Under the pieces are notes generated by a model. That model ran no database searches, was not told the origin of the DNA, and worked only from the letters and a program-made list of their open reading frames with translations. Positions 7,640-64,000 of a stretch of 64,000 bases of DNA are shown here, in pieces. Made by a program: the position numbers and the translations under genes. Position 1 is the first letter of the stretch. Each line of letters starts with the position of its first letter. The DNA comes from Nitrosophilus kaiyonis (GTDB lineage Bacteria; Campylobacterota; Campylobacteria; Campylobacterales; Nitratiruptoraceae): positions 372,001 to 436,000 of the forward strand of contig NZ_AP025696.1 in assembly GCF_027943725.1 (NCBI RefSeq), written 5' to 3'.

Positions 7640-7757
7640 ATCCTTAGTATTAATTGGACATTAGCCATTAGTCATTAGGAATTAGGAATTGGCCGCTTCA
7701 CTGCTTCTCCGCTACCCCCTTACCACCTTATCCCCTTATCACCTCATTCACCCAAAT
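7640..7757. repeat. Layered word array leading into structured repeat B
   Basis: Three word classes in order: TTAGCCATTAGTCATTAGGAATTAGGAATTGG, then CCGCTTCACTGCTTCTCCGCT, then ACCCCCTTACCACCTTATCCCCTTATCACC. The same order of classes occurs before other structured elements. The 7635-7945 gap holds only this array, repeat B and ten bases before the molybdoenzyme stop. Confidence 0.8.
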
Positions 7758-30129: not shown

Positions 30130-30306
30130 CTAACCGCAAACTTGTTTCGCTTTGCTCAACTTCGTTTGCTTCAAGGTAAACCAGCCTCTCGTATGTTCGG
30201 CACGAAAAACCTTGTTTTTCGGACTCACATATACTCAAGGCTTTCGCTCGGGCACTAACGATAAGCAGTTATCGTTCTAAAGCTTCGCTTTGCCCTCGCT
30301 CACTTA
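30130..30306 (-). repeat. Structured RNA-like intergenic repeat, copy C
   Basis: Full-length copy; RNA sense inferred as minus, i.e. immediately downstream of queE, its end touching the queE stop codon. Arms (plus coordinates): GCAAAC 30136-30141 with GTTTGC 30164-30169; AGCCT 30183-30187 with AGGCT 30238-30242; CGAAAAA 30203-30209 with TTTTTCG 30215-30221; GGGC 30250-30253 with GCCC 30292-30295; AACGATAA 30257-30264 with TTATCGTT 30269-30276; AAAGC 30279-30283 with GCTTT 30287-30291. All these pairs are Watson-Crick in this copy. The GCAAAC hairpin contains a GUUGAGC/GCGAAAC segment with tandem G-A mismatches, a common RNA motif. Confidence 0.87.
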
Positions 30307-31062
30307 CCTTCTTATCTCCCTATTCCAAAGTCTAACATGAAGTCTGTCACTATAAATAAATCCATATATTAAACAAAATTCAGCAACAGCTTTATCATGC
30401 TTTTTTAAAATATCGATTTTATCTCCAAGAGGCATACAAAAAATTTCAACTTCAGGATAAGGTTCTACAATATCAACTATTTCATCAATGGCACGAGTTT
30501 CAATCAATCCTCTATCAAGAGTAAATTTAAAAAAAGAGAATTTTGTATTTTTTACAATTTTATCAATTGCTTTTTTATTGACTCTTTTTTCATAAGGATC
30601 GCCACAGTTACTTAATTTTACCGCCATTGCAAAAATAACATCTTTATATGCACTATATTTTTCAAAATCTATTTCTATAGTTGTATTTGTCTCAATTGTA
30701 ACTATAAAACCATTTTCTATTAAATATTTAACAAATTCATAAAATGACTTATCTGTTGCATAAAGCAGGGGCTCTCCACCAGTTAAAACAATATGAGGTT
30801 TAAAATCTAAATTTTCTAAATAATCATTTAAAATTTCTATTAACTCTTTATAATCTTTAATCTCTTTCCACTCTTTTTGAAACAAATCTCTTTTAACAGC
30901 TCTAATAGTATCACATCCATATACAATTTTACCCTTTACAAAATATTCACCAAAAGATGGGCATTTTAAATTACATCCACCAAATCGGAAAAATATACTT
31001 GGTGTTCCAACAAATTTACCCTCTCCTTGTATACTATAGAAGTGTTCGACAAGATACAGCAT
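30304..31062 (-). CDS. queE: 7-carboxy-7-deazaguanine synthase
   Basis: 252 aa radical SAM enzyme converting carboxytetrahydropterin to 7-carboxy-7-deazaguanine (queuosine/preQ0 pathway). Signature EHFYSIQGEGKFVGTPSIFFR at the N-terminus, then the cluster cysteines in GCNLKCPS and a third in YGCDT after an insertion, as in the epsilonproteobacterial subclass; LTGGEPLLY is the GGE motif and IETNTT the ribose motif. Flanked on the 3' side by repeat C and on the 5' side by the multibranched element at 31111-31326. Confidence 0.94.
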   Translation of the reverse strand: MLYLVEHFYSIQGEGKFVGTPSIFFRFGGCNLKCPSFGEYFVKGKIVYGCDTIRAVKRDLFQKEWKEIKDYKELIEILNDYLENLDFKPHIVLTGGEPLLYATDKSFYEFVKYLIENGFIVTIETNTTIEIDFEKYSAYKDVIFAMAVKLSNCGDPYEKRVNKKAIDKIVKNTKFSFFKFTLDRGLIETRAIDEIVDIVEPYPEVEIFCMPLGDKIDILKKHDKAVAEFCLIYGFIYSDRLHVRLWNREIRR

Positions 31063-31110
31063 TTATTTCCTTTTGATGTAATACATTAGTCATTAGTCAT
31101 TAAGACCTTA
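31063..31110. repeat. Short word array between queE and the multibranched element
   Basis: ATACATTAGTCATTAGTCATTAAG; the words match the ATTAGTCATTAG arrays at 7650, 36245 and 63700. The gap 31063-31373 contains this array, the multibranched element and a second array at 31327-31373. Confidence 0.65.
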
Positions 31111-31326
31111 AAAAATTACAAATTGAACGAAGGCTTTGTATTTTGTCCTCGCTTTGCTGCGGGGTTGTCGCCTTCGGCTCGGACACCTAGAAAATTTTAT
31201 GTTGGCCTTTAGGCCAAAAAAGTGCACTCACCCGTAAGGGCGCTTGCGTTTGCACTTTTTAATAAAATTTTTAAGCGTTAGTAAACTAAAAATTTCAACT
31301 CGCCTAAGTGAAATTTGATAATTTTT
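31111..31326. repeat. Multibranched inverted-repeat element (MITE- or RNA-like)
   Basis: Ends pair: AAAAATTACAAATT 31111-31124 with AATTTGATAATTTTT 31312-31326 (one bulged base). Inside: TGTCC 31144-31148 with GGACA 31181-31185 enclosing TCGC/GCGG and GCC-TTC-GGC hairpins; AAAATTTTAT 31191-31200 with ATAAAATTTT 31262-31271 enclosing TTGGCC-TTTA-GGCCAA (31202-31217) and AAAAAGTGCA/TGCACTTTTT (31217-31226/31251-31260), which itself holds CCC-GTAA-GGG (31231-31240); and AAATTTCA/TGAAATTT (31290-31297/31309-31316). A GNRA-type GTAA loop and one T-G pair favour the plus strand as RNA. No ORF. Unrelated in sequence to repeats A-C. CATTAA occurs on both sides (31098-31103, 31332-31337). Confidence 0.8.
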
Positions 31327-31373
31327 CAGAACATTAAATTACCAATTCCAAATTACAAATTACTAATTAAAAA
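31327..31373. repeat. Short word array downstream of moaA
   Basis: ATTAAATTACCAATTCC, AAATTACAAATTACTAATT; reverse-complement partners of the ATTAGT words at 31085-31101 on the other side of the multibranched element, so the element sits at the apex of an inverted word array. Confidence 0.6.
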
Positions 31374-32342
31374 TCATCCCCCTGTCTCATAAAAAGCCCT
31401 ATTTGAAGCTTCACTCTCTTCTTCACTCCAGCGATTCTCTTTTGGTTTATTTCTTAAAACTTCTTTTAAAATTTCAACTGCTCTGTCTATATCTCCTGCT
31501 TGAACTGCATCTTTGATACTCATAGCTTCATCAAAATATAAACAAGGAATCAAATATCCTTCAGCGGTAAGTCTAATTCGATTACATGTTTCGCAAAAAT
31601 CGTGTTTATGAGGATCTATAAGTCCAAAAATGTAATCTTCATTTTTTATTTTGTATAAAAATGCAGGTGAGCTGCCTTTTCTGCCAATTTTTTCAATTTC
31701 ATATTTCTCTTTAATCTTATTTAATATCTCTTTTCCCTGCATACCTTTTAAACTACTATGGGCATGGACATTTTCCATATACTCTATAAACCTTACCTGC
31801 ATACCTCTATCTTTACAAAAATCCAAAATATCAACTATCTCATCCTCATTAACACCTTTTAATGGAACCATATTTATTTTTACTTTTAATCCAACTTTTA
31901 AAGCCTCTTCAATTCCATCCAGAACATTTCGTAAAACATCTTTTCCAGCAATTTTAGCTGCAACCTCTGGCTTTAGACTATCAAGAGAGATATTTAATCT
32001 TTTAAGACCTGCTTCTTTTAAATCTTTTGCAATAGATTTTAATAGATATCCATTAGTTGTCATAGCTAAATCTATATCATTTTTATAATCATATATCATC
32101 TTTATAAATTTATCTAAATCTGCTCTTAATGTTGGCTCTCCACCAGTTAATCTTATCTTTGTGATTCCCTCATCAATAGCAGCTTTTATAAATTTAAAAA
32201 GATCTTCAAAACTTAGAAGATTTTCTTTTGGAACCCATGAAAACGGTTTTTCTGGCATACAATATTGACATCTAAAATTGCATCTCTCAGTCAAAGATAC
32301 TCTTAAATAGTTAACTTCTCTTCCATGTCCATCAATTAGCAT
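31374..32342 (-). CDS. moaA: GTP 3',8-cyclase (molybdenum cofactor synthesis)
   Basis: 322 aa radical SAM enzyme of the first Moco step. N-terminal cluster [19 protein letters not shown] (C-x3-C-x2-C), GGEPTLR, and the second C-terminal cluster [18 protein letters not shown]. The C-terminus ends in the essential Gly-Gly tail (ETGG), so the protein looks intact. Separated from queE by the multibranched element; upstream is a quasi-palindromic array, so it likely has its own promoter. Confidence 0.96.
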
Positions 32343-36226: not shown

Positions 36227-36357
36227 AAAATTCCTTTAAATGTTTTTTTGACATTAGTCATTAGATATTGGTGTATTAGTTATTAGTGTATTGGTATATT
36301 AGATATATAATTTTTTACCAATAACTAATAACCAATATACCAATTACCTTTTTCTCA
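36227..36357. repeat. Quasi-palindromic word array between mnmG and hypothetical gene
   Basis: TATTGGTGTATTAGTTATTAG and TGTATTGGTATATTAG face ACCAATAACTAATAACCAAT and ATACCAATTACC. Aligning one half with the reverse complement of the other leaves a two-base gap and two or three mismatches over about 30 bases: the clearest palindromic example in the window. Confidence 0.88.
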
Positions 36358-61879: not shown

Positions 61880-62022
61880 TTAAACTTCTCCTAATTTTGG
61901 ACAATGGGCATTAGACATTGGACATTAGGAATTGGGAATTCCACTTCACTTCTTTTCCCCTAACTTTCTAACTCTTTCACTTTCTCACTTTCTTACTCTC
62001 TTACTCACCATACTAATCTAAC
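61880..62022. repeat. Word array between the regulator and kinase genes
   Basis: GACAATGGGCATTAGACATTGG, ATTAGGAATTGGGAATTCC, then ACTTTCTAACTCTTTCACTTTC and ACTCTCTTACTCACC. Several word classes in a row, mostly pyrimidine-rich on the right; no strong hairpin. Confidence 0.7.
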
Positions 62023-63689: not shown

Positions 63690-63812
63690 AAATAGTCATT
63701 GGTCATTAGTCATTGGCCATAAAGTTAGTAATTCGTAATTAGTAATACGAGATAAGTGATAAGTAAATTTGACATTAGGTATTGATAACTAGTTTTCCTT
63801 CAACTTCAAAAT
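63690..63812. repeat. Layered word array at the right end
   Basis: GTCATTGGTCATTAGTCATTGG, AATTCGTAATTAGTAATACG, ACATTAGGTATTGATAACTAG and TTCCTTCAACTTC words leading into the truncated structured repeat D. The same arrangement precedes repeat B. Confidence 0.75.
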
Positions 63813-63848
63813 TAACCGAAAATCTTTGCTTTGACCTCATTCACTTCA
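63813..63848 (-). repeat. Structured RNA-like repeat, internally deleted copy D
   Basis: TAACCGAAAATCTTTGCTT matches the 5' end of copy A (antisense orientation) and then TGACCTCATTCACTTC matches the other end of the repeat (TGCCTTTGCTCACTTC in A). The joint is the 8-base CTTTGCTT, which occurs at both places in copy A, so copy D looks like a deletion by recombination or slippage between those short direct repeats, losing about 140 bases. All long stems are lost. Confidence 0.7.
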
Positions 63849-63959
63849 TAGATTCTCAGCTTTACAGCCTCACCCTTTACCACATATCTCACTAATCCAT
63901 TATCAACTATTAACATACTAATGTCTAATGTCCAATGTCCAATGACTAATGACTAATTT
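63849..63959. repeat. Word array between repeat D and the partial terminal ORF
   Basis: Contains ACTAATCCATTATCAACTATTAAC, ATACTAATGTCTAATGTCC and AATGTCCAATGACTAATGACTAAT: reverse complements of the ATTAGTCATTGG words at 63695-63720, so D lies at the apex of an inverted word array. Confidence 0.7.
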
Positions 63960-64000
63960 CTAATGACATGTATGTATTGATGCATTTGGATCAAATATAA
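63960..64000 (-). CDS. Possible C-terminal end of a gene running off the window
   Basis: A minus-strand frame ends ...FDPNASIHTCH with TAG at 63960-63962 and is open to the window edge. The adjacent arrays and repeat D would then lie downstream of it, in agreement with the rule seen for copies A-C. Thirteen codons are too few to be sure. Confidence 0.35.
   Translation of the reverse strand, partial: IFDPNASIHTCH

Follow-up and report, generated by a model that had tools for sequence, protein, structure and literature searches.

A putative MITE-like element with a conserved multibranched core in the moaA–queE spacer of Nitrosophilus kaiyonis and in other vent Campylobacterota

The spacer between moaA and queE in Nitrosophilus kaiyonis contains a folded element flanked by an array of short words. 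Both genes lie on the minus strand of the window, by which we mean the whole stretch of 64,000 nucleotides analysed here: moaA (31374–32342, recognised by Pfam Mob_synth_C) is the upstream neighbour and queE (30304–31062) the downstream one, the latter having a Pfam radical SAM match below the curated cut-off, a name taken from the first-pass annotation, and a conserved adjacency to moaA. Comparison with other copies places the element at about 31098–31340 on the plus strand, with AATT-like borders, so that the limits originally drawn, 31111–31326, are slightly short. Our covariance model matches it at 31102–31338 with 111.9 bits (E 6.4e-29) and, as had been noted, finds a single copy in the window. 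The initial description of the element as GC-rich and non-coding also holds: its GC content is 38%, against about 22–31% in most surrounding sequence windows, and no open reading frame of at least 80 amino acids covers it in the window.

The flanking ATTAGTC array (31081–31103, plus strand) is a separate feature. The element had been placed at the apex of an inverted word array, and while the array is real, the sister species G003 has a 235-nt moaA–queE spacer (L235) that is rich in the same words yet lacks the element. Matches to the words ATTAGTC and ATTAGAC (7–8 bp) number 20 in the window against 1.9 expected, roughly ten times chance, with further arrays at 7653–7678, 36253–36286, 61910–61928 and 63698–63964. 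The CATTAA remarked on both sides of the element is likewise present but unconvincing as a target duplication: on the left it belongs to the word array, and on the right it is the family end CATTCAATT in variant form.

The 216-nt stretch first noted does form a multibranched fold, with −61.4 kcal/mol (z −3.45) on the plus strand and −60.8 kcal/mol (z −4.55) on the minus strand; on either strand, none of 200 shuffles folds as well. Its minimum free energy (MFE) structure has the long closing stem, the nested junctions and the GTAA-capped hairpin (CCC-GTAA-GGG, 31231–31240) that had been drawn from the window copy. In plus-strand coordinates, the closing stem P1 joins a 5′ arm at 31111–31124 to a 3′ arm at 31311–31326. 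Two side hairpins of the MFE fold, TGGCC-TTT-AGGCC(A) at 31203–31215 and TTAG-TAAA-CTAA at 31278–31290, correspond to helix 6 and helix 10 of an 82-copy alignment, the latter with double changes in 4/4 pairs. The most conserved core, at 31216–31260, consists of A6, GTGCA, CCC(GTAA)GGG, GCGCTTGCGTT, TGCAC and T5, and its helix 7 is 96.7% paired in the 82 copies.

The window copy also has an extra GC-rich double hairpin of about 39 nt, GTCC...TTCG...GGAC (31145–31184, plus strand), which standard copies (about 190–200 bp) lack; in its own genome only one other copy (L002) has it, and a similar insert lies at the same place in copies of genome G098. This module of about 40 nt occupies the corresponding position in elements of two families (compare L258–L260), and similar sequence occurs within apparent open reading frames of G006 and G009 (L081, L077).

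Is the element peculiar to this spacer? The first-pass annotation had left copy number to a search of the full genome, and there the element is multicopy: a DNA search of its own 1.77-Mb genome gives seven copies, with 90–96% identity to the window copy, and the covariance model search an eighth, partial one. Of the 399 genomes of the order, 49 carry the family according to covariance model R1, and these fall in 18 of the 87 genera; the distribution is patchy, with often 6–25 copies per carrier. A deeper search of 15 genomes found matches in 12 (2–25 each, mostly at least 6) and none in three close relatives. A scan of 84,980 species genomes for the core pattern gave 36 contig stretches, every one titled as a Campylobacterota group and metagenome-assembled; the element is absent from the viral contigs, phages and plasmids searched. 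Rfam gave no relevant match at gathering or permissive thresholds, HEARO included, and the open-access literature yielded no earlier description of the family. MITEs as a kind are known; what is novel is a covarying multibranched core that persists while the ends change.

Since the element separates two neighbouring genes that point the same way, one might take it for a cis-regulatory RNA of moaA and queE, such as a leader, a riboswitch or an attenuator. We give this reading almost no credence. The strand that is conserved runs antisense to moaA and to queE alike, the remaining copies are scattered over other loci in every orientation, and Rfam offers no match. Moreover, the spacer is 311 bp long here, against 0–17 bp in most relatives; Nitratiruptor-like genomes and G001 have 0–2 bp, G002 has 17 bp and G005 about 100 bp. 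A queE/moaA riboswitch is rejected by the orientation together with the empty site, and the absent spacer in relatives refutes a conserved regulator.

The copies behave instead as mobile DNA. They are intergenic, their sites are not conserved and their orientation to genes follows no rule (28 antisense, 15 sense, 15 divergent and 10 convergent); the copies of the window's genome share no loci with those of G003. G003 and G002 do share one insertion site, with a full copy in the former (L127:2970–3240) and a reduced copy in the latter (L220:1930–2050). Direct repeats of 7–8 bp (TTCCTAA, AGAATAA, AAACTAA, TTAGGATA) border the copies ending in CTGANVTTACGCA at a constant offset, and target duplications are seen in the fixed-offset test of the distant, CTGA-ended group; when offsets were left free and all copies tested, the result did not clearly exceed its null expectation. 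Copies of the window's type mostly sit at AATT, so that no clean target duplication could be told apart. The family thus has several properties of a MITE: it is multicopy, short, non-coding and bounded by terminal inverted repeats, its sites are non-orthologous, and relatives have empty sites, although at moaA–queE the word array blurs the empty site.

The ends indicate what kind of transposon may have been involved. In the window copy, the left terminal inverted repeat (31098–31116, plus strand) is the degenerate CATTAAGACCTTAAAAAAT, of which the genus form is AATTGAGACCTCTGAAAAA, and the right one (31322–31340) reads AATTTAATGTTCTGAAAAA on the minus strand. The first-pass annotation had suggested looking for a transposase with matching inverted repeats, and although the window's own genome has no DDE_Tnp_1 transposase that we could find, a DDE transposase search led to an insertion sequence in the relative G088 (L283) with AATTGAACCCTCTGAAAAA at both ends, the left one with one mismatch. 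It encodes a 330-aa IS5-family transposase (NF033581, 245 bits against a cut-off of 140), and GAACCCTCTGAAAAA is the terminal repeat matched between it and the element. Copies of the window's type mostly agree with the L283 end at 14–18 of 19 positions on either side, whereas random 40-mers rarely exceed 13; the reduced G002 copy agrees at 19/19 on the left, and the window copy at 11/19 on the left and 15/19 on the right. Because its ends match the terminal inverted repeats of a relative's IS5-family insertion sequence, the window's type is, judged by its ends, an IS5-family MITE. The MITE option of the first-pass annotation is accordingly supported. The window copy itself is probably immobile at present, given the lack of such a transposase in its own genome and its degenerate left end; the sole insertion sequence carrying these ends belongs to a different family within the order.

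Other families carry this folded core between different ends, either CTGANVTTACGCA, with the 7–8-bp target duplications described above, or TACTRACTAAAT, and for neither did we find an autonomous partner. In G059, two CTGATGTTACGCA ends 1.7 kb apart were considered as the borders of an autonomous transposon and rejected, as they enclose an oxidoreductase gene. The same genome has 99 occurrences of the 13-bp CTGANVTTACGCA end motif, against 0 for a reversed-pattern control (for example L207–L212, L224 and L225), also in inward pairs 90–435 bp apart, some at spacings unlike those of the present element; perhaps several MITE families with common ends are present there, with no transposase seen. 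How could one core come to lie between different ends? It might be an RNA module in its own right, selfish or functional, that has been captured by transposon ends of at least three unrelated kinds, in which case the RNA structure would be the selected unit, and the RNA would aid its own spread or act in the host; we regard this as an unlikely account.

Parts of the element can be gained or lost. Longer copies of 268–290 nt, in at least two families, have an extra apical domain of about 85 nt (L250–L257); unit sizes across the family are about 165–330 bp. In G002 and G003, subfamilies of 176–182 nt that have lost the element's own apical domain are among the most numerous, from which we conclude that the lost domain is not needed for spread. 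The extra domain of about 85 nt is also found by itself, twice in the window's own genome (G000:C1:203149 and 1251055; L267:1456–1585) and, further, in the tRNA-containing 16S–23S spacer of two g3 genomes. It has the form GGCGTMTGCTATGC..GCATAWACGCMTCGCCGTGCGGAGCTAC..AAGCAGTT..TTWACGCTCCTCCC, with covarying stems and fixed loops (further examples in L262, L263, L265, L266 and L270–L277), and has no Rfam match; some copies start with CGTC, a possible link to CGTC-tagged REPs.

The fold is real, and compensatory change maintains it. When 21 diverse copies are aligned with MAFFT, double compensatory changes are found in 49 of the 67 predicted pairs, and 96.3% of cells are paired, against 82.4% in shuffles (0/500 as high) and 36–49% with slid partners. 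Over 82 copies, in an alignment that was fitted to the model's structure and hence leans toward it, the corresponding figures are 60 of 67 pairs and 94.7% of pairs kept, against 72.8% in shuffles (0/500 as high). In distant copies, aligned separately with MAFFT, the core stem emerged independently, with 15 of 20 pairs compensated. Other copies exist and their stems are conserved among them, and the covariance check proposed with the original description comes out in favour of the fold.

Such covariation could also arise in a purely DNA-level palindromic MITE, its arms held complementary by hairpin-templated repair and having no RNA role, and three observations fit this. Wobble pairs are rare (130 of 5159 cells, about 2.5% of pairs), double changes are seen at every P1 pair (17/17 in the 82 copies), and the reduced G002 copy has lost, relative to its G003 counterpart at the shared site, the stretch between two GAGCGAAA repeats at the stem base, as expected of hairpin slippage. 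However, on the plus strand G-U pairs exceed A-C mismatches by 109 to 48 (p about 1e-6, with one count per pair and genome, the sequences being related), and since mutation alone should be symmetrical, the excess is not expected from mutation alone and points to the plus strand as the folding strand. The conservation of loop and junction bases of the core across families, and the retention of the branched architecture over long divergence, also speak against a DNA-level origin, and we consider it rather improbable as a full explanation. The RNA option, which the first-pass annotation had left open beside the MITE, thus gains support from covariation and the G-U excess on the plus strand. Nevertheless, the share of G-U pairs seems low for an RNA family, so that DNA-level correction of the arms may also act.

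If the core is folded as RNA, one may ask whether it serves an RNA-guided nuclease, as a guide or scaffold RNA moved by a TnpB- or IscB-like system. Omega RNAs are of comparable size, multibranched and mobile, and the element recalls them in its anatomy, which is the level at which we compare them. The TnpB zinc-ribbon domain PF07282, however, is present in only 3 of 18 searched genomes, and TnpB was rejected as a partner on its absence from the other 15 (including the window's own genome, G002, G059, G009 and G080). With no match to HEARO or any other Rfam family either, we find this explanation very unlikely.

We propose that the element is, in all likelihood, a non-autonomous MITE-like element with a conserved multibranched core, widespread in vent Campylobacterota. 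In the window's lineage the ends are those of IS5-family insertion sequences, so that mobilisation in trans by an IS5-family DDE transposase is probable. This copy would then have landed between moaA and queE, within the short-word array, after the split from relatives. The plus-strand fold is probably selected at the RNA level, as a compact structure in a transcript that might act in processing or attenuation; a role as a hairpin of single-stranded DNA is the next candidate. The presence of the same core between different terminal repeats in other families suggests that the core is kept while ends change. The core hairpin with its A6 and T5 flanks could attenuate transcription on either strand, which we offer as speculation, since a terminator scan flagged nothing, the core hairpin included; the single hit of a promoter scan was weak and lay beyond the element.

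The family is a candidate for inclusion in Rfam and offers a convenient marker for following genome change in vent Campylobacterota, and a core persisting across changing ends makes it testable whether RNA structure keeps such elements alive. Among known systems, MITEs in general, as treated in PMC10969869, in which we found no Campylobacterota term, are among the closest described kinds. The present element resembles IS5-family MITEs in that its terminal repeats match an IS5-family insertion sequence and in being short, AT-rich, non-coding, intergenic and multicopy; it differs in its interior, a strongly covarying multibranched core found elsewhere with two other kinds of end. REP/RAYT and TIRYT repeats, of which the GTAG and CGTC types are both reported in Sulfurovum NBC37-1 (PMC3733652), are likewise palindromic and intergenic, but REPs measure 20–40 bp, far below the present unit. 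ERIC/RU-1, YPAL/RU-2 and NEMIS/Correia are mobile intergenic repeats of 100–200 bp whose transcripts fold by 5′–3′ pairing, with effects on transcripts reported for ERIC and NEMIS (PMC2229807). As folded mobile intergenic repeats they are, compared by description, likewise among the closest kinds, though they belong to a different phylum, whereas the present family has several junctions, covariation across families of the order and, in some lineages, 7–8-bp target duplications. Finally, while bacterial MITEs have often been drawn as folded RNAs from single sequences, here the structure has passed a covariation test on more than 80 copies from many genera.
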